From NCBI GenBank assembly GCA_032252755.1, contig JAVUPY010000091.1:1-39417 (forward strand): a stretch of 39,417 nucleotides of DNA, in the 5' to 3' direction. A program made the translations under genes and the position numbers. Numbering within the stretch: position 1 is the first letter of the stretch; each line of letters starts with the position of its first letter. The notes beneath the pieces are model-generated. The model did no database searches, was not told where the DNA came from, and worked only from the letters and a program-made list of their open reading frames with translations. The DNA is from Terriglobia bacterium. Its GTDB lineage: Bacteria > Acidobacteriota > Terriglobia > Terriglobales > Acidobacteriaceae. This document shows positions 98-9,433 of the stretch, one piece after another.

Positions 98-301
98 CAG
101 GAATTTTGTGAGTGGACAGGTTCTGACATTGTGGCGTGAGCTGGCAATCTGAAGTTGGTTATGAACACAATGGGGCACACCGACGTGCCCACTGCCATGA
201 AGTATCAACACCCGGAGTTCGAGATTGTGCGTGAAGTTTTAAATTCACGGCACATTCCACGGCACACCGGGGTAACAGGCAACTTGGAAAACAACCGGTA
301 A
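98..301 (+). pseudogene. Decayed C-terminal fragment of a tyrosine integrase
   Basis: Reading the + strand in the frame that ends at TAA 299-301 gives a tail containing GNLKLVMNTMGHTDVPTAMK followed by YQHPEFEIVREVLNSR. This is the last part of a tyrosine-recombinase catalytic domain: an (M)GH(T/S) box, then a Tyr (in the KYQHP stretch) where the nucleophile is expected. Upstream the same frame hits TGA at 137 and at 95, and no HxLR box can be read, so only a broken remnant survives. It ends 15 bp before the left attachment repeat. It differs in sequence from the intact integrase to its right (LLGHTQPQTTARYAHL), so it belongs to another, older element. The start is arbitrary. Confidence 0.6.
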
Positions 302-396
302 GTCGTTGAAAAGAATTTGGCTGCCCCCCAGGGATTCGAACCCCGATATGCTGATCCAGAGTGTTCTGTTCGCCACAAGTGCTATCAACGACTTAC
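298..396. repeat. 12-bp inverted repeat flanking the left attachment core
   Basis: GTAAGTCGTTGA at 298-309 is repeated in inverted form as TCAACGACTTAC at 385-396. The arms enclose the 46-bp att repeat: one arm lies in the flank outside the element, the other inside. The right attachment site has no such arms. The pairing is exact, but its function (recombinase or host-factor binding, or remnant structure) is unknown. Confidence 0.6.
317..362. repeat. Left attachment repeat (tRNA-Gln 3' fragment)
   Basis: This 46-bp sequence is identical to 9119-9164 and corresponds to the tRNA-Gln 3' part from the anticodon loop to the CCA end. To the right of 362 the sequence departs from the tRNA, so this is the displaced copy made by integration. 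The integrase gene begins 139 bp away. Confidence 0.93.
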
Positions 397-500: not shown

Positions 501-1805
501 ATGCCTAGATTCGAAATCACCGATAAGCTGATAAAGGTCTTACAACCGCCTCCAAGCGGCAACCGCATTCATTTTGGTGACCTCCCTGGATTCGGAGTCC
601 GCATCTCCAGCGGCGGCGCAATCGCCTTCGTTTACACATACCGGAATGCGCACGGGCAAAAGCGGCTGATGAAAATTGGCCGATACCCGTCAACATCCTG
701 CACCCAGGCCCGCACAAAGGCTCTCAAGTATCAGAACCTTGTGGAAAACGGTCGAGATCCGCTCGCAGAAAAACAGGCGAACTGCGACTCGCCTACCTTT
801 GCGGACCTCTCCCGCGAATACCTCGCCGATCCCGAGACATCGAAAAAGCGCGCGTCAACGATGCGCAATGAACGGCAGATGCTCGCAACGATCATCAATA
901 AAAACCTGGGCACGCTGCTAGTGCAGAACATCACTCGCAACGATATCGCGCGATTGCACGCATCGTTGAAGGCGACGCCATACCGCGCGAATCGAGTACT
1001 CGCCCTACTCTCGACAATGTTCTCGTTCGCAATGGAGCGAACGTTGCGCACAGACAATCCAGCAAAGGGTGTTAAGAGATACCCCGAACACAAACGCGAA
1101 GCGATGTTGACCGAAGAGCAGCTCGAGCGCCTCTCGACAGCGCTGGCATCTTACCCGGACTTGGCGCGTGACGAATCGGACCGCCTCGCGAGAGAGAGCG
1201 CGGCGAACGCTATTCGACTCCTATTACTGACCGGCGCACGTGAAAATGAAGTGCTGCAGGCCGCCTGGGCCGAGTTTGACCTGGGCCGCGCGGTATGGAC
1301 TAAGCCAAGCCATCACACAAAACAGAAGAAAACGGAGCACGTTGCTCTCAGCGATGCGGCGCTCGAATTGCTGCAGAGCATGGAAAAGAAGAAATCCGGC
1401 GAACATCTCTTCCCTGGAAACAAAACTGAGAAGGACAAAACGGAAAAAGCGCGCGCTACCATTCGGCGGCCTTGGGTCCAAGTGCTGAAAGCTGCAGGCC
1501 TCGCGGAGAGAATCGAAAAAGAGGGTAAGCGCCTGGTGCGCGATGCATCTGGCAAGCTGGTTCGGCGAAAGATCATTCAGTACAAACCCGTGTTCCGCAT
1601 CCATGACCTCAGGCACAATTTCGCATCGCATCTTGTCTCGCGCGGCGTGTCTCTTCACATTGTTGGCAAGCTGCTGGGGCACACGCAACCCCAAACCACC
1701 GCTCGCTATGCTCACCTGTCGGACAGTCCGTTGCGCGACGCTGCGAATCAGTTTGGGCTAATTGTCACAAGAGGCGGCAAGATTTCTGCCCAAAGCACTC
1801 GATAG
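501..1805 (+). CDS. int: P4-type site-specific tyrosine recombinase (integrase)
   Basis: The protein has 434 aa and should catalyse integration and excision of the element at tRNA-Gln. Residues about 1-95 form the DUF4102-type arm-binding domain typical of P4-like integrases (FGDLPGFGVRISSGG and a KRLMKIGRYP motif). Residues about 98-190 are the core-binding SAM-like domain. The catalytic domain follows: Arg247 in TGARENE, Lys274 as the likely beta-hairpin lysine, His368 and Arg371 in HDLRH, His394 in LLGH, and nucleophile Tyr403 in TTARYAHL. All catalytic residues are present. The ATG at 501 follows the 20-bp repeat directly with no strong Shine-Dalgarno, though it matches the family N-terminus. 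The gene lies beside the displaced att copy, at the end opposite the intact tRNA, and is followed by a terminator at 1829. Confidence 0.95.
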   Translation: MPRFEITDKLIKVLQPPPSGNRIHFGDLPGFGVRISSGGAIAFVYTYRNAHGQKRLMKIGRYPSTSCTQARTKALKYQNLVENGRDPLAEKQANCDSPTFADLSREYLADPETSKKRASTMRNERQMLATIINKNLGTLLVQNITRNDIARLHASLKATPYRANRVLALLSTMFSFAMERTLRTDNPAKGVKRYPEHKREAMLTEEQLERLSTALASYPDLARDESDRLARESAANAIRLLLLTGARENEVLQAAWAEFDLGRAVWTKPSHHTKQKKTEHVALSDAALELLQSMEKKKSGEHLFPGNKTEKDKTEKARATIRRPWVQVLKAAGLAERIEKEGKRLVRDASGKLVRRKIIQYKPVFRIHDLRHNFASHLVSRGVSLHIVGKLLGHTQPQTTARYAHLSDSPLRDAANQFGLIVTRGGKISAQSTR

Positions 1806-2671: not shown

Positions 2672-3130
2672 ATGCGATTCACTGAGCAAAAGCTGACGAT
2701 GGCTGAAGCAGCGAGCGTCGCGGGCTACCCCGACAAACTGCTTCAAGATGCCCTAGCAAAGAACACCCTGCAGGGCTGCGGCGTGAAAGATGCGCGCCTG
2801 GGCCGGTGGTTCTTCTCCCCTTCCGATGCTCTGGGCCTGACGGTCGCGGCGCTGCTGGCACCTCAGTTGAAGCTCTCCGAGCGCTTCCACGTGGCAGGGA
2901 TCGTTGCCGAACACGTTGAGACGCACATTGACGAAAGCGGCGAACTCAACGGGCCTGCTGAGATGACGATGGTATTTGGCGGCGTCTGGCCCGAATTACT
3001 TCCAGAGGTGAGCACACCGCCGGAAGTTGACGAATTGCGTCAGCAGTATCGGCCCTTTGTCGTTGTCCCAGTGAAGATGATCTTGAAGCGAGTACTTGCT
3101 CGAATCGCCAAGCTTTCCCAGGAGGGCTGA
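2672..3130 (+). CDS. Small putative DNA-binding protein of the element
   Basis: The protein has 152 aa from ATG 2672, chosen because GGAGGG lies 5-6 bases upstream; an earlier in-frame start at 2582 lacks such a site and would run through the operator repeats. The N-terminus (KLTMAEAASVAGYPDKLLQD, then GRWFFSPSDALGLTVAALL) resembles a MerR-like helix-turn-helix with a wing. The rest is unrecognised. Its stop overlaps the next ATG (TGATG), so the two are probably translationally coupled. It is the first gene of the rightward block. A regulatory or replication-accessory role is possible but not shown. Confidence 0.65.
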   Translation: MRFTEQKLTMAEAASVAGYPDKLLQDALAKNTLQGCGVKDARLGRWFFSPSDALGLTVAALLAPQLKLSERFHVAGIVAEHVETHIDESGELNGPAEMTMVFGGVWPELLPEVSTPPEVDELRQQYRPFVVVPVKMILKRVLARIAKLSQEG

Positions 3131-3375
3131 TGAACGTCGAAAGCGAAATCGTCGGCCAAACAACAAACGTACTCGCAGGCTATCTGACGCGCCCGCAGCT
3201 TGCGGTGCAGCTCGGTAAATCAACGCGGTGCTTGCATCGCTGGGAGACGGATGGTAGCGGGCCGCCGGTCACGCGCCTGGGCAAGCTGGTTCTGTACAAG
3301 GTCGAATCGGTACGCGAGTGGCTTGCAGCCCTGGAAGCGCGCACTGAGCGATGTGGACGCGGGAGGCGGCGATAG
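3130..3375 (+). CDS. AlpA/excisionase-like helix-turn-helix protein
   Basis: The protein has 81 aa. The centre reads YLTRPQLAVQLGKSTRCLHR, then WETDGSGPPVTRLGKLVLYK and VESVREWL. This is the usual layout of the HTH_17/AlpA-type winged helix: helix-turn-helix, a tryptophan before a basic loop, a GK.LY strand, and a final helix ending in WL. Such proteins act as excisionases or transcription activators in P4-like elements and phages. It overlaps the preceding gene by 1 bp, and the next gene starts on the following base, so the three form one operon. AGGAGG lies just upstream of the ATG. Confidence 0.8.
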   Translation: MNVESEIVGQTTNVLAGYLTRPQLAVQLGKSTRCLHRWETDGSGPPVTRLGKLVLYKVESVREWLAALEARTERCGRGRRR

Positions 3376-4014
3376 ATGAGCTGGAAGTGCTCAGGCTGGG
3401 TCAAAGAGCAAACGGTCACGCCAAGCGGGGAGCGGCTGCTTATCAGCGAGAAGTTTGTGTGGTTGGTCCTCGCCGACTACCACAACACAGCGAAGGCAGC
3501 GGCGTGGCCCTCTGTACCGAACTTGGCGCGTGAATGCCTGATGGAAGAACGGACCTGTTATCGCGTAATCAGTGAGTTGGAACGCAAGTTGTGTATCGTG
3601 CGCCGTCGCAACGGTACCGGTCGCGGCGCAAAGAATGAATATCTGTTTGTGGGCTTCGACGTGACCATCGAACAGGCGCGGGAGTTGCAGAAACCCTCTG
3701 ACAAAGGGTGTCAGATTGTCACCCTTCGTGAGGCTAAGAACCCTGACACGCGACTCACCCTTCCCACTTCTGAAAGGGTGACAGAAACGCGCGGTATACC
3801 TGACAGGATACCTGACAAGAATACTGACACGAATACTGACACGATTTCCGGCGATGCGATTGAAAACAAAGAAAACCAGACGACAACCGGTTTTAGAACC
3901 GGTTTTAGAACCGGTCTTAGAACCGGTAACAGCGAGCCGGAAGGAAGCGCGGACGAAGCGATCATTCGAGAAACGCTGAGGAACGGATTCGAGTATGACA
4001 GTTACAAACATTGA
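3376..4014 (+). CDS. Replication initiator-like protein (lambda O-like layout)
   Basis: The protein has 212 aa. Residues about 20-95 look like a winged helix-turn-helix of the kind in replisome-organiser proteins (WLVLADYHN, then WPSVPNLARECLMEERTCYR and VISELERK). From about residue 115 the sequence becomes low-complexity and repeats short units (DRIPDKNTDTNTDT, then FRTGFRTGLRTG). Those units are encoded by nearly identical 12-bp DNA repeats. The following gene is a DnaC-like loader overlapping by 20 bp. An initiator with internal repeats followed by a helicase loader is the arrangement of lambda O-ori-P and related phages. The initiator function is inferred from layout and HTH; sequence identity to a known family is not proven. 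Confidence 0.7.
   Translation: MSWKCSGWVKEQTVTPSGERLLISEKFVWLVLADYHNTAKAAAWPSVPNLARECLMEERTCYRVISELERKLCIVRRRNGTGRGAKNEYLFVGFDVTIEQARELQKPSDKGCQIVTLREAKNPDTRLTLPTSERVTETRGIPDRIPDKNTDTNTDTISGDAIENKENQTTTGFRTGFRTGLRTGNSEPEGSADEAIIRETLRNGFEYDSYKH
3796..3842 (+). repeat. Iteron-like 12-bp repeats, set A
   Basis: ATACCTGACA occurs at 3796-3805 and 3808-3817, then GAATACTGACAC at 3819-3830 and 3831-3842; both pairs have a 12-bp period. CTGACA/TGTCAG motifs also occur just upstream (about 3696-3715 and 3741-3748). They lie in the initiator-like gene. Confidence 0.6.
3885..3927 (+). repeat. Iteron-like 12-bp repeats, set B (candidate origin)
   Basis: AACCGGTTTTAG is repeated at 3885-3896 and 3897-3908, then with one change at 3909-3920 (AACCGGTCTTAG), and partly at 3921-3927. 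Each unit carries the palindrome ACCGGT. Identity at the DNA level, including third codon positions, is more than the repeated peptide (FRTG) would need. Together with set A this is a candidate replication origin. Confidence 0.6.
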
Positions 4015-4678
4015 CTGCGCAGTGTGCAGTGGCACTGGGTTTCGATACATTGGCGAACCGCATCACGAACGCGCGGTGCGCTGCGAATGCCTCAAGCAAG
4101 CCGTGATCGATTCCACATTGCCTCCCCGGTATCGCGGAGCGAGCCTGGAGCAATTCGAAGAGCGTGCTGCGAACTTCGTGCGGTTGTGGCTCACGATGCC
4201 GACCGATGGCCTGTTCGTAACTGGGCCGGTTGGCACTGGCAAGACGCATCTCGCATGTGCGCTGGCGCGCACTGCGATTGACCTGGGAAAGCGCGTTTCG
4301 TTCGTGCGTTGCTGCGACCTGTACGCAGAGATTCGCAGGACGTTCAACGATGAGACAGGCAGCACCGAAGGCGACATCCTGGACCGATATGCGAGCGCGC
4401 CAATCCTTGTGCTCGATGACTTTGGAGCAGGCAGCCTGAGTGATTTCGAAAGGCGCACAGCGCTCGACATCATCGATTCGAGACTGAACCACAGGCGGCC
4501 AACAGTCGTAACTACGAACCTCGCATTGACTCGCATTCGAGAGGTAATGGACGAACGCATCGCATCGAGACTCAGCAGCTTCACACCGTTCCGTCTGATT
4601 GGACCAGATCGAAGGGCGCAAGGTACTCCCCCAGGGGTGCGGCCTGCGGGTAACGCGCGAGCCGCGACTTGTCTCTAG
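3995..4678 (+). CDS. DnaC/IstB-like AAA+ helicase loader
   Basis: The protein has 227 aa. An N-terminal metal-binding pattern (Cys8, Cys11, Cys30, Cys32) is followed by an AAA+ core: Walker A GPVGTGKT at 77-84, Walker B ILVLDDFG with Asp141-Asp142, a sensor-1 strand ending in VVTTN near residue 175, and an arginine-containing IASRL motif. This is the DnaC-type helicase loader family, which would load the host replicative helicase at the element origin. The ATG lies 20 bp inside the upstream initiator-like gene, so translation is probably coupled. The C-terminal ~25 residues are Gly/Pro/Arg-rich and unlike the family. After the stop, 237 bp contain no convincing gene before the capsid gene. 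Confidence 0.88.
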   Translation: MTVTNIDCAVCSGTGFRYIGEPHHERAVRCECLKQAVIDSTLPPRYRGASLEQFEERAANFVRLWLTMPTDGLFVTGPVGTGKTHLACALARTAIDLGKRVSFVRCCDLYAEIRRTFNDETGSTEGDILDRYASAPILVLDDFGAGSLSDFERRTALDIIDSRLNHRRPTVVTTNLALTRIREVMDERIASRLSSFTPFRLIGPDRRAQGTPPGVRPAGNARAATCL

Positions 4679-4859
4679 CAAAGTCGCAAAAATGTAGGTT
4701 GATTTCGGGTTATCGAGGTTGATTTTGGATTCCGAAAAGGACAACACGGAGCAAGCGCAAAACGACGGGCAATCCCCCATTGCGGAAGTTCCCGTCCTTC
4801 GTGATCCCAAGCACTTCGGTCGGATTCGCAACGGCATATCCGACCTGGGGAGATCTAAG

Positions 4860-4915: not shown

Positions 4916-6742
4916 ATGCAATCGGTAACACCAACAAAATTGCCGGTTCTGCATCGCTCGATGTCACTAGAACGCGCGGCTTCCGGCGACGTCAGTCTGA
5001 GCCTTACGAGTGATGCGCCAGTCGAGCGTTGGTTCGGAATCGAAATTCTGGACCACACGCCCGACGCTATTGTCACCACTCGGGCAAAGGACGGACTGCC
5101 ACTGCTCTTCAATCACGATGAAGCGCAACTCATCGGGCGACTGGAAAACATGCGCGTCGCAAAAGGTCGCACTCGTTTCTCCGTCCGGTTTGCGGCAAAT
5201 GACGCGCTCGCCCAGGAGAAGCGCTCGCTAGTCGAGGATGGAATTTTGCGCGACGCGAGTGCGGGTTACATCGTTCACGCAATGGAAGAGCGCGGGCAGG
5301 ATGCCCAGGGCCGCAAGATTTTTCACGTCACAAAATGGGAACCCTACGAAGGTTCGCTGGTTGCGGTGCCCGCCGATCCCGGCGTCGGCGTTGGTCGCAG
5401 CGCAGCGCGCGAAGAATACCCCGTAGCAATACGGGCGAATCAAAATCCGGCTTCGGCCGCAAAGAGGAATCACAACATGAATCAGAACATCACCGTTAAC
5501 GCCGATCCCGCCGCGGCCGAGTTTGAACGGCAAACCGCAATTCGCGCGCTCGGCAAGATGCACAACATGGACCTCGAAGCTCTACTCAACGACCAGAACG
5601 TCACGGTTGACCGCGCGCGTGAGGTCGTTCTCAACTCGCTATCTCGCGGTGCGAGATCCGTTTCGCAGCCTGCGGGTGACGATGGCGGCTCAACGCTGAT
5701 CGAGTTGAACCAGCGCGAGAGAGAGCGCTATTCCGTCCGTTCCGCCATTCTCTCGGCGATGACGGGCGAGAACAGCTTCGAACGCGAAATATCGCACGAT
5801 TTCTGCAAGCGCACGGGCCGCCGAACTGGGGACAAGTTCTCTCTTTGGGTGCCCTATCGCACAGGGCAGCGAGCTGCGCACACGCTCAACATCACCACCG
5901 CTACCCAGGGGCAGGAATTAGCGCCGACGTTGCTGCCAGACGTAATCGAATACCTGTACAAACAGGTTGTCTGCGTCGCGGCGGGCGCTCGCGTACTGAG
6001 TGGCCTCGTGGGGAAAGTCGCTTTCCCGCGAATGACCGGCAACACGGCAGCTTCAATGAAGGCGGAAAGCATCGCGGCGGCGCAGTCCGACGTGACGTTC
6101 GATCAAGTCCCGATGGAACCGCGCCGGGGCACGCTGTACACGAGCTACACTGTTGACCTGCTGCGGCAATCCTCGTTCGATGTCGAGAACCTGGTGCGCG
6201 CTGATCTCGGCAAACAAATCGCGATACTGGTTGATGCGATGGCCTTGACAGGCGACGGGAACGCGCCCAATCCGACGGGCGTGATGAACACGGCAAACAT
6301 CGGCAGCGCGACATGGACCGCCACAAGCGAACTGACGAAAACCAAGTCGATCATTGCCCTGGAATCCGCGCTGGCGGCAAAGGAAGCACTCAATGGCGCG
6401 CCCGCCTACATCACCACGCCCGAAGCCAAGGGAATGCTCAAAGGCACCGCAAAGCTCGCCAACACGTCTGGAATTGGCATCTGGGAGGGCGACCGCATGA
6501 ACGGATATGCCGCGTTCGCCTCCAACCTGATGCCGAAGGATCTGGGTGCTGGTTCTGACCACGGCATCCTGTTCGGGGATTTTTCTAACCTAATCCTGGG
6601 CGACTGGGGCGGCCTGGAATTGGTAGTAGACCCCTACACTCGAGCAAAGGAAGCTGAGGTCGCACTCATCGTGCGTCACTACTTCGATATCGCTGTGAGG
6701 CACCCGGAGTCGTTCGCGAAAATGTCCTTCGCGATTGCGTAG
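4916..6742 (+). CDS. HK97-type prohead protease fused to major capsid protein
   Basis: The protein has 608 aa from ATG 4916, which has GGGAGG 6-8 bases upstream; an in-frame GTG at 4859 is less likely. Residues about 15-165 match the Caudoviricetes prohead protease (peptidase U35-like): His67 in LLFNHDEA and Ser115 in DASAGYIV are the expected catalytic pair. A linker of about 180-250 is followed by an HK97-fold capsid domain, with phage_capsid signatures such as VRADLGKQIAILVDAMALTG, DGNAPNPTG and, near the end, GILFGDFSNLILGDWGGLEL. Such fusions are known in lambda/HK97-like phages: the protease cleaves the shell during maturation. It precedes the portal gene, the reverse of the usual portal-protease-capsid order. 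An internal ATG with a good ribosome-binding site lies at 5477. Confidence 0.92.
   Translation: MQSVTPTKLPVLHRSMSLERAASGDVSLSLTSDAPVERWFGIEILDHTPDAIVTTRAKDGLPLLFNHDEAQLIGRLENMRVAKGRTRFSVRFAANDALAQEKRSLVEDGILRDASAGYIVHAMEERGQDAQGRKIFHVTKWEPYEGSLVAVPADPGVGVGRSAAREEYPVAIRANQNPASAAKRNHNMNQNITVNADPAAAEFERQTAIRALGKMHNMDLEALLNDQNVTVDRAREVVLNSLSRGARSVSQPAGDDGGSTLIELNQRERERYSVRSAILSAMTGENSFEREISHDFCKRTGRRTGDKFSLWVPYRTGQRAAHTLNITTATQGQELAPTLLPDVIEYLYKQVVCVAAGARVLSGLVGKVAFPRMTGNTAASMKAESIAAAQSDVTFDQVPMEPRRGTLYTSYTVDLLRQSSFDVENLVRADLGKQIAILVDAMALTGDGNAPNPTGVMNTANIGSATWTATSELTKTKSIIALESALAAKEALNGAPAYITTPEAKGMLKGTAKLANTSGIGIWEGDRMNGYAAFASNLMPKDLGAGSDHGILFGDFSNLILGDWGGLELVVDPYTRAKEAEVALIVRHYFDIAVRHPESFAKMSFAIA
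5463..5479 (+). promoter_or_regulatory. Possible internal ribosome-binding site and start in the capsid fusion
   Basis: AGAGGA at 5463-5468 lies 8 bases before an in-frame ATG at 5477, at the junction between the protease and the scaffold/capsid part. Initiation there would give a separate capsid protein of about 421 aa beginning MNQNITVNAD. It is a sequence match only. Confidence 0.4.
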
Positions 6743-6753
6743 TTTCACCAGAC

Positions 6754-6782
6754 GGCGCTGTCTGTCAGCCGCAGACAGCGCC
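6754..6782 (+). terminator. Strong hairpin between capsid and portal genes
   Basis: GGCGCTGTCTG (6754-6764) and CAGACAGCGCC (6772-6782) form a perfect 11-bp stem with a 7-base loop, 12 bp after the capsid stop. No T-run follows, so it may be a partial terminator or an RNA stability/processing structure that lowers portal expression relative to capsid. A second weaker inverted repeat (GGGGAGA near 6785, TCTCCCC near 6826) follows in the same 150-bp gap. Confidence 0.55.
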
Positions 6783-6892
6783 CTGGGGAGATGACGCGCT
6801 CCTCTGCACCTCCTTAGCCGCGCGTCTCCCCTGGGGAGCGGATTCGAACTTCCGCCGAACACCGCTCCCCCACTTTTCGCTTCACAGGGCGG

Positions 6893-8458
6893 ATGGAGAA
6901 GCAACTTATGACCTGGAAAGCTGCGATGTATCGTTTACTGTCGCGCGTCGGCCTGTCTCCGCGTGCCACGCGCTACCAAGCGCCCTTTGAGGGTGCGAGC
7001 TTCTCCCGCCTCAATATGGATTGGGCGACTTCTCTTCTATCGTCAGATCAAAAGCTGCGTTTCTCGCAACGCGTCATGCGGATGCGCTCGCGCGAGCTGG
7101 CGCAGAACAACGATTACGTCATCCGCTTCCTGAATCTCGCGCGGCAGAACGTTATTGGACGCCACGGAATCGGCATGGAAATCGCGTTCGATCAGGAGCA
7201 ATTCAACGGCGCCGATGCTCTCGCAGAGAAGATCGAAACCGCATGGCAGCGATGGAGTGAACGCGTTTCGACCTGTGGCCAAATGTCCTGGGTCGATTTC
7301 CAGCAAGCATGGATTGCGTGGTTTCTCGCCGATGGCGAAACCTTCGTAAAGCGCGTCAAAGGGTACCCGCACAACATCACCCGCTTCGCGCTGCAGCCGA
7401 TCGACCCCGATGTCGTCGACGTCAGCTTCAATCGCGATCGAATTGAGAGCGGCGGCGGCGGCGCAAACGAAGTGCGGATGGGAGTCGAGTTGGACAGTTG
7501 GCGGCGGCCCGTGGCCTACTGGGCGCTGCGACGCCACCCAGGCGAAGGCGCAACTGTCGCGCGCGACCGCATTCCCGCTGAAGAGATGGACCACTCGTTT
7601 GTGTTCAAAATGATTGCTCAGACGCGCGGCGTGCCCTGGCTTCACACTGCAATGACTCGCATGAAGATGTTAGGCGGATACGAAGAGGCGGAGCTGGTAG
7701 CGTCGCGCCTGGCCGCGTGCAAGATGGGCTTTTTCTCCAGCGAAACTGGCGAGAGCTACGAAGGCGGAGAGCGGGCCGCAAGCGGCGAACTCGAAGTAAC
7801 CGTTGAACCGGGCTCATGGGAGGAACTACCGGCAGGGCTTGACGTGAAAACTGTTGACTGGCAGCACCCGAACCAACAATTCGCGGAGTTCAGCAAAGCG
7901 ATGCTGCGCGGCGCGGCAATGGGAATCAACGTCAGTTATTCATCTCTGACTGGGGATCTGCGCGATGTCAACTTCTCTTCGATCCGTCAAGGCATCCTCG
8001 ATGAACGCGACGGCTGGGCATTGCTGCAGGCATTCGCAGTAGACCATCTCTGTAAGCCTGTGTTTTCCGATTGGCTGCGCATGGCCGTGACGACTGGACA
8101 AGTCGAGTTGCCCAGGCAATTACCGGTGGAAGCCGTGATCGAAGCAACGACCTGGACGCCACGTGGCTGGGACTGGGTTGATCCTCGAAGGGATGTGGAT
8201 GCTGATATTGCAGCCGTGCGCGCGGGTATGACTTCCCTTAAACAGGTCTGCGCGAAGCGCGGCTTCGACTGGCGAGAAGTTCTGGAGCAGCGTGCAAAGG
8301 AAAACACATTCGCAGAAGGCCTCGGGCTATCACTCGACTTCACCACATCGGGAGCAGGCGGCGTAGAGGGAGACGCTCAAAGCGAAGGCTCTCAGCCGGC
8401 AACGCCGGCAACGCCGGCGAGAACGAAGCCGAATGGGCAGGCCCCCAAGGTGCATTAA
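6893..8458 (+). CDS. Lambda-family phage portal protein
   Basis: The protein has 521 aa. It matches the lambda GpB-type portal family (Phage_portal_2), which forms the dodecameric DNA entry ring at one capsid vertex. Recognisable segments are the N-terminal RSRELAQNNDYVIRFLNLA and NVIGRHGIGM, the core YSSLTGDLRDVNFSSIRQGI near residue 350, and the C-terminal RGWDWVDPRRDVDAD followed by a VRAGMTSLKQVCAKRG-type tail. Length fits the family. The last ~40 residues are a Pro/Ala/Thr-rich extension. Starts at 6893 (AGGGCGG upstream) and 6908 (GGAG upstream) are both possible. Normally a large terminase lies upstream of this gene and connectors downstream; neither is seen here. Confidence 0.92.
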   Translation: MEKQLMTWKAAMYRLLSRVGLSPRATRYQAPFEGASFSRLNMDWATSLLSSDQKLRFSQRVMRMRSRELAQNNDYVIRFLNLARQNVIGRHGIGMEIAFDQEQFNGADALAEKIETAWQRWSERVSTCGQMSWVDFQQAWIAWFLADGETFVKRVKGYPHNITRFALQPIDPDVVDVSFNRDRIESGGGGANEVRMGVELDSWRRPVAYWALRRHPGEGATVARDRIPAEEMDHSFVFKMIAQTRGVPWLHTAMTRMKMLGGYEEAELVASRLAACKMGFFSSETGESYEGGERAASGELEVTVEPGSWEELPAGLDVKTVDWQHPNQQFAEFSKAMLRGAAMGINVSYSSLTGDLRDVNFSSIRQGILDERDGWALLQAFAVDHLCKPVFSDWLRMAVTTGQVELPRQLPVEAVIEATTWTPRGWDWVDPRRDVDADIAAVRAGMTSLKQVCAKRGFDWREVLEQRAKENTFAEGLGLSLDFTTSGAGGVEGDAQSEGSQPATPATPARTKPNGQAPKVH

Positions 8459-8879: not shown

Positions 8880-8982
8880 CCTCGCCTCCCTCTCTTCTCG
8901 TCTGCCGCTACGATACCTTTCTGACGCCTTAGAAGGCGAAAAAATACTTCAGCGGGCATCACAAAGCCAGCGTTGCGGTTGT

Positions 8983-9002
8983 TGGTGACAAGGTGGTGAC
9001 AA
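8983..9002 (+). repeat. 20-bp repeat, copy 2 (candidate integrase arm site)
   Basis: This is an exact copy of 478-497, located 117 bp inside the right attachment repeat. It lies in the 240-bp right-end region (8880-9119), which holds no convincing gene. Confidence 0.7.
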
Positions 9003-9053
9003 AGGGCGTCCCGGTGCGCCTGCTGACGCTCTCTGGTGTGCTCGGCTTGCGAT

Positions 9054-9073
9054 TGGTGACAAGGTGGTGACAA
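9054..9073 (+). repeat. 20-bp repeat, copy 3 (candidate integrase arm site)
   Basis: This is an exact copy of 478-497, 71 bp after copy 2 and 45 bp before the right attachment repeat. Paired direct arm sites beside one att core are typical of DUF4102-type integrase systems. Confidence 0.7.
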
Positions 9074-9118
9074 ATTAGAGGCATGAAAATCTTGATATTG
9101 AGGAAACCCGCATTTTTA

Positions 9119-9164
9119 TTGGCTGCCCCCCAGGGATTCGAACCCCGATATGCTGATCCAGAGT
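9119..9164. repeat. Right attachment repeat, inside tRNA-Gln
   Basis: Identical over 46 bp to 317-362. It runs from the 3' end of tRNA-Gln to the first bases of the anticodon loop, so strand exchange probably occurs in the anticodon region and the intact tRNA is restored after integration. Confidence 0.93.
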
Positions 9165-9193
9165 CAGCTGTCCTGCCGTTGAACGAGGGGGCA
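9120..9193 (-). tRNA. tRNA-Gln (anticodon CUG)
   Basis: The minus strand folds as a 74-nt tRNA. Acceptor TGCCCCC pairs with GGGGGCA, G73 is followed by an encoded CCA, the anticodon stem GCTGA/TCAGC encloses CTCTGGA (anticodon CTG, complement at 9159-9161), and the T arm is CGGGG-TTCGAAT-CCCTG. The U1-A72 pair and G73 are known glutamine identity features. It is the integration target, rebuilt by the element's att sequence. Confidence 0.95.
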
Positions 9194-9288: not shown

Positions 9289-9433
9289 TCAACTTTCGTC
9301 CGGATCGACTTTCGTTCCATCGGCTTTCGCTCCATCAACTTCGCTCCCCTCTCCACCGATTTTAATTCCCACCATCAACTTCCGTCACCGTTCAGGTTCC
9401 CGCGTCACTTCGTTCCGTTCAACTTTCGTCCGT
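9289..9433 (+). repeat. Degenerate 15-16-bp repeats in a gene-free region
   Basis: The gap 9194-9652 has no gene. It contains tandem variants of TCAACTTTCGTCC: 9289-9304, 9305-9319, 9320-9334 and 9335-9349, then scattered copies at 9375, 9405 and 9419. TCAACTTTCGTCCG is exact at 9289-9302 and 9419-9432. The role is unknown. Confidence 0.5.

Follow-up and report, generated by a model that had tools for sequence, protein, structure and literature searches.

In lambda and Stx phages the replication origin, built from repeated initiator sites and an AT-rich tract, lies midway along the initiator gene, which the P gene adjoins; two more iterons mean 13 more amino acids (PMC7466680). The RepA_N initiator of pSK41 has an N-terminal binding domain, four Rep boxes lie centrally in rep, and the linker of the protein is encoded by the origin; the protein stretch encoded by ori is described as dispensable (PMC5703833). 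An origin inside an initiator gene is also described for repABC plasmids (PMC3155836), whereas the PICI origin, in which an AT-rich region stands between two repeat sets, is located 3′ of the replication gene (PMC6092414). An intragenic position of the origin is thus already known; what appears to be new here is a putative palindrome-based class with HTH_36-type initiators. We found no description of such a class in the iteron and initiator, satellite or half-site-letter literature, within a partial coverage of journals. To our knowledge, the origin is unmapped for many temperate phages and satellites. A short DNA signature would give candidate origins in dozens of initiator genes at once, in which binding, unwinding and loading are testable.

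We propose, with a probability of roughly 0.87, that positions 3703-3927 of the window analysed here (the whole stretch of DNA, 39,417 nucleotides) are the replication origin of a small integrated element and lie within the part of its initiator gene that codes for the linker. The locus would resemble the lambda O-ori-P plan in having sites within the initiator gene that are conserved as DNA (at the level of the family), an unstable tract beside them and a loader gene downstream. It differs from lambda in its HTH_36 initiator, without the lambda O Pfam family, in its boxes, a 21-bp palindrome plus half-sites that in the family stand about two helix turns apart, and in its DnaC/IstB-like loader. 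With pSK41 it shares an N-terminal domain, boxes central in the gene, an apparently origin-encoded linker and weak fold matches (4pql, 5kbj, 4pt7); unlike pSK41, it lacks a RepA_N match (Pfam, E ≤0.1), is an integrated element rather than a plasmid and has a separate loader. As in PICIs, two repeat sets flank an AT-rich region and an integrase and AlpA-like gene are present, but the boxes lie inside the initiator gene and the nine ORFs scanned contain no primase match. Capsid-forming PICIs, too, are small integrated elements with their own capsid and portal genes, but they average 14 kb against 8.8 kb here, no large terminase was found in the element, and its host group probably lies outside those named for them (PMC10803314).

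Results

The att copies of the integrated, phage-like element (Table 1) are identical over 46 bp and enclose a unit of 8,802 bp. The preliminary description had called an HTH protein gene followed by a DnaC-like gene, and both calls are borne out by profile matches. The small gene preceding the initiator, which a reading of its sequence suggests to be AlpA-like, also matches a small terminase weakly (E 0.011). Scanning of nine element ORFs against Pfam and PHROG gave no match to a large terminase or tail gene. A terminase of their own is typical of capsid-forming PICIs. Relatives of the capsid protein at E ≤1e-30 occur in 2 other genomes of 200 (loci L014 and L015); both loci also have a portal relative and, by ORF reading, a terminase and more phage genes.

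Table 1. Features of the element, in window coordinates.
Feature	Position	Strand	Evidence or sequence
attL	317..362		46-bp perfect direct repeat; partner, attR
Tyrosine integrase	501..1805	+	PF00589, E 6e-24; phrog_1, E 1e-59
Small HTH_17/excisionase-regulator gene	3130..3375	+	phrog_66, E 1.5e-7; HTH_17, E 4e-5 (under the Pfam cut-off)
Replication initiator	3376..4014	+	PF13730 (HTH_36), E 2e-9; phrog_270, E 4e-10, and phrog_678, E 6e-9 (replication initiation)
Candidate origin core	3703..3726		inverted half-site pair AAAGGGTGTCA-GAT-TGTCACCCTT; holds the 21-bp palindrome
21-bp exact palindrome	3705..3725		AGGGTGTCA-GAT-TGTCACCCT
Weak half-site	3754..3762	−	CTCACCCTT; sequence reading
Direct half-site	3773..3785	+	AAAGGGTGACAGA; frame differs from that of the half-site at 3703
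Helically unstable stretch, candidate unwinding element	3795..3918		helix-stability calculation
Array 1	3796..3844	+	unit CTGACANGAATA; zone where relatives have direct half-sites; putative role
Array 2	3885..3927	+	unit AACCGGTTTTAG
DnaC/IstB-like helicase loader	3995..4678	+	PF01695, E 3e-20; phrog_50, E 1e-45
Prohead protease-major capsid protein fusion	4916..6742	+	PF04586, PF05065, phrog_617; element context
Portal protein	6893..8458	+	PF05136, E 5e-89; element context
attR	9119..9164		overlaps 3′ end of tRNA-Gln(CTG), 9120-9193, − strand

The initiator, with 212 residues shorter than 39 of the 44 relatives in the set, consists of a winged-helix HTH_36 domain (about residues 23-91), a linker encoded by the candidate origin and a short C-terminal tail. 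Up to E 0.1 it matches no Pfam family besides HTH_36, neither lambda O nor RepA_N; phrog_678, a remote match, is annotated 'replication initiation O-like'. It is the sole HTH_36 match in the element's own genome (5.39 Mb). Its relatives are distant (24-42% identity): protein searches of viral contigs found no close relative of initiator, capsid or loader, one protein scan of genome contigs found a single distant locus (L020), and a protein search with the initiator itself returned 1 phage and 10 plasmid records at a query coverage of at most 44%. With the initiator of L029 as query no phage was returned, and that of L123 returned 237 phage records; 14 regions taken from the 60 of these records that were listed form our named-phage set.

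A structure model of the initiator (A2, six sequences, mean pLDDT 45) is usable in its winged-helix part alone: residues 23-91 are winged-helix-like, and pLDDT is below 50 at residues 1-12, 81-85 and 107-212. The Foldseek matches are weak and do not reach E 0.001, the best having E 0.0066; 4pql, 5kbj and 4pt7, titled as DNA binding protein, Rep-DNA complex and initiator, and which we take to be staphylococcal plasmid RepA domains, rank within the top seven together with LexA and MarR-type regulators. Solved structures searched by sequence yielded 25 matches, all weak (best E 0.0022) and named mostly as transcription regulators. The fold comparison is thus a weak lead only.

The 21-bp palindrome and the direct half-site lie just upstream of the interval 3796-3927, to which the preliminary description had assigned its iteron-like repeats. 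None of 100 shuffles of the whole window contains such a palindrome, and in the element's own genome it occurs once, within the initiator gene. The element follows the plan of its relatives, with the palindrome at 3705, the direct half-site at 3773, the zone of array 1 and an AACC chain in array 2, the chain (+169 to +216) lying further downstream than in most relatives. An intragenic origin is upheld by this comparison, but the conserved core would be 3703-3785, not the two 12-bp arrays. Between 3780 and 3929, 60-bp windows have a GC content of 43-47%, which a few other windows equal or undercut (e.g. 4680-4739, 38%). Within the module, the 100-bp window of lowest stability begins at 3795; it ranks fourth in instability within the element, 1.6% of whose 100-bp windows are less stable. 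The stretch 3795-3918 belongs to the least stable tracts of the element, with several others less stable still.

The two 12-bp repeat sets reported in the HTH gene were recovered by Tandem Repeats Finder (array 1: 3800-3844, period 12, 3.8 copies, 88% match; array 2: 3885-3927, period 12, 3.6 copies, 96% match) and are the strongest lag-12 repeats, the 12 best 31-base windows of the whole 39.4-kb stretch all falling within them. When codons were sampled according to the usage of six element genes and the peptide was left unchanged, the lag-12 identity of array 1 (33/39) exceeded the simulated mean of 25.3 (p = 5e-5), and that of array 2 (31/33; simulated mean 22.4) was reached in none of 20,000 simulations. 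Identical residues four codons apart use the same codon in 8/8 cases in array 1 and 9/9 in array 2. Independent codon choice is excluded for the arrays. The codon identity that had suggested selection on DNA is real and beyond chance, in 17/17 pairs, but it does not by itself prove such selection, since recent tandem duplication predicts the same. A separate test, in which synonymous codons were permuted with peptides fixed and repeated 8-mers counted, gave 32 in-frame repeats against 1.7 expected for the initiator and 1 out-of-frame repeat against 0.45 (p = 0.27); with many in-frame repeats and no out-of-frame excess, the element's own gene does not settle the question of DNA versus peptide.

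Array 1 perhaps consists of degenerate half-sites with TGACA retained. By eye, 6-7 of 10 bases agree with the half-site, and the period is 12, not 11 or 21-23; diverged as it is, the array may or may not bind protein. Array 2, together with AACC at 3874, forms a chain of five AACC at steps of 11-12 bp. The exact sequences of arrays 1 and 2 were seen in none of the relatives examined, all of them distant.

A scan of IMG/VR by DNA alone with the pattern AGGGTGNCA-N3-TGNCACCCT returned 94 stretches with 97 occurrences, of which 69 lie inside HTH_36-type initiator genes (54, 14 and 1 by frame). The 96 occurrences in 93 of the stretches divide into 68 within HTH initiator genes (54, 13 and 1 in frames 1, 2 and 0), 24 in loci without an HTH match and 4 in loci whose HTH gene does not contain the palindrome; in the 94th, L116, the palindrome is inside the initiator too, in frame 2. 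When the half-sites were rearranged as a control, the pattern occurred 30 times, including 3 distinct occurrences in initiators (68/96 versus 3/30, Fisher p = 4e-9). Outside initiators the palindrome count of 28 matches the control background of 27, so that the surplus sits in initiators. A search of 398 host-family genomes found the palindrome at 9 sites, spread over 8 genomes; 8 of these sites are within HTH initiator genes, and the reversed control pattern is absent. Two genes carry two palindromes each, 25 bp apart and in different frames in L225 and in two frames in L286. The three control palindromes in HTH initiators (L261, L274, L281) are perhaps a sister box class. A looser pattern (two direct half-sites with a variable gap) had retrieved 96 stretches, only 5 of them with an HTH initiator (L029, L042, L059, L076, L116), and the palindrome was used instead.

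The exact palindrome marks a subclass of initiators, being present in 9 of the 45 that make up our domain profile and in 0 of the 14 named-phage loci. In these nine it begins at residue 101-120 in eight cases and at residue 96 in L127; the profile, made from the first 100 residues, therefore hardly sees the box.

Relatives have DNA arrays in the corresponding position, after the HTH-coding part, and several of these arrays are based on AAGGGTGNCA with a period of 11, 12 or about 22. In L029, four copies at exact 11-bp steps are translated as KGD, RVT, EGCH and KGD, one unit in three frames, and the palindrome box of relatives reads as KGDNLSPF, KGCQDVTL or RVTPCHP. With peptides fixed, 40 initiators (the element's and the near-identical L029, L076 and L116 included) hold 627 out-of-frame repeated 8-mers against 42.7 expected. 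A significant out-of-frame excess is found in 30/40 initiators versus 7/69 other ORFs of the same loci (Fisher p = 6e-12), the latter being mechanical ORFs, not checked genes, and themselves above expectation (91 out-of-frame pairs versus 49.8); an in-frame excess is found in 28/40 versus 7/69, and neither kind in 6/40 versus 55/69. Out-of-frame arrays are likewise present in 11 of the 14 named-phage initiator genes. Other array cores occur in the HTH_36-type initiators of L124, L132 and L129 (ACCGGCCA and ACCGGACAT, about 22 bp apart; AGCACCCTGAACAATCG, 21 bp apart), which suggests several site specificities in the family.

Removal of near-identical modules reduced 67 genes to 53 for the analysis of layout (and to 61 in another comparison; L116 is outside both). 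Counted with up to one mismatch, two or more direct half-sites stand 21-150 bp downstream of the palindrome in 46 of the 53 genes, which include the element's own with its one canonical site, and the mean per gene is 2.8 versus 1.0 in synonymous shuffles. Of 100 half-site intervals, 85 measure 21-23 bp; taken modulo 3, the 100 intervals favour no frame (41/33/26, p = 0.18), and as judged from them the spacing follows helix turns, not codons. AACC chains at 9-13 bp (e.g. ATAGAACCATCAATAGAACC) occur in 20/53 genes against 5.9 expected, leaving 33/53 without one, and chains of three or more in 13/53 against 0.95, although the motif was picked after the arrays had been seen and its p-value is post hoc.

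Synonymous differences between the near-identical loci are few in the module (2/32, 1/31 and 1/29 same-residue codons for the L029, L076 and L116 pairs) compared with the HTH part (12/99, 19/100 and 22/98); the p-values are 0.52, 0.043 and 0.025, two of three significant, for pairs that are not independent. Comparisons with L158 add nothing, since this locus and L116 are one contig. The three reading frames, the helix-turn spacing regardless of frame and the recurring AACC chains argue that DNA, not peptide, is conserved across the family. The preliminary description had named as contrary to its claim a family in which the peptide is kept and the DNA repeat lost. The opposite was seen: the DNA box is kept, and peptides and frames differ.

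The adjoining DnaC-like gene was part of the plan originally put forward. It holds for the element, but among the ORFs downstream of initiators a DnaC-like protein was matched in at least 4 of 41 (the element, L197, L177 and L238) and a DnaB-like helicase in at least 1 of 41 (L193), each among the 25 of 52 families listed. As downstream ORF we took the longest one on the same strand, of at least 100 aa and within 900 bp. Such an ORF was present in 40 of 47 relatives and absent from 7, the sample covering all but 5 of the 53 genes. An adjacent loader gene would thus be one option among several and not a rule of the family. The initiator C-termini of L117 and L119 are DnaA_N-like (E 0.0083 and 0.0017, under the Pfam cut-off), and a fused helicase-recruiting part is possible there.

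Discussion

The lambda-like placement of the origin within the initiator gene, as first proposed, is well supported by the comparison of relatives, in which the DNA box is conserved whatever its reading frame and located in initiator genes. Protein binding, unwinding, helicase loading and replication of the excised circle are predicted from this arrangement. The N-terminal winged-helix domain would bind the inverted pair at 3705-3725, and the same domain would bind the downstream direct half-sites on one helix face. The assembled initiator would then open the unstable, A-rich stretch before and at array 2, and the neighbouring DnaC-like protein would load the host helicase. The sequence of the initiator's linker would be for the most part a by-product of the origin DNA that encodes it.

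The alternative that survives best, although we consider it unlikely, is a decayed origin whose half-sites were eroded and filled by tandem slippage, giving the 12-bp arrays, in an 8.8-kb defective prophage remnant. Decay would account for the single canonical direct half-site, for in-frame arrays of period 12 whose sequence was seen in no relative, for the short initiator and for the lack of a large terminase or tail match among the nine ORFs. It sits less well with a palindrome kept exact, with att repeats identical over their full length, with open frames for integrase, initiator and loader, and with the AACC chain.

Much less probable is selection of a low-complexity linker for its function in the protein, with the DNA repeats as a consequence. 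Such selection would explain why both arrays are in frame and why the element's gene has no out-of-frame excess. Against it stand the identical codons of the repeats, the relatives that read the same boxes in three frames and the 11-bp arrays that give several peptides from one unit; at the level of the family it is rejected, the same box giving different peptides by frame.

Repressor boxes are typically palindromic and autorepression is common among plasmid initiators, yet we find it highly improbable that the boxes, instead of forming an origin, serve as operators for self-repression of the operon or as a packaging site, as the palindrome lies 329 bp into the gene and the spaced direct sites, unstable stretch and second array have the layout of known origins, with the loader gene following.

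Returning to the origin as the preferred reading, we think it somewhat probable that the element represents a class of phage and satellite origins. Such origins would comprise a 21-bp palindrome, half-sites at two helix turns and often a second array of AACC, all in the linker-coding part of an HTH_36-type initiator gene, and related initiators would use the same plan with other boxes. The frame of the linker would be free and the origin DNA fixed, and the helicase-recruiting part would be swappable (a DnaC-like gene, a weakly DnaA_N-like fused domain or another C-terminal domain). Our confidence in this class was lowered slightly because the exact palindrome is absent from the named-phage loci. 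The wider plan is testable in bench phages, given the out-of-frame arrays of 11/14 named-phage initiators. One DNA stretch would serve as both binding array and coding sequence, and the same box in three frames suggests that the array wins.

Additional observations on the element

The order of genes within 4916-8458 is capsid then portal, the reverse of that in the prophage-like locus L015. An ORF fragment left of attL (window 150-300, MNTMGHTDVPTAMKYQHPEFEIVREV...) appears by eye to be the C-terminus of another tyrosine integrase, which suggests an older or neighbouring element at the same site. Direct repeats of GGTGACAAGGTGGTGACAA lie at both ends of the element (478-497, 8982-9003 and 9053-9074) and are perhaps candidate arm-type sites of the integrase. 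A 15-bp tandem repeat, ATCGACTTTCGCTCC, occupies 9304-9347, immediately outside attR.
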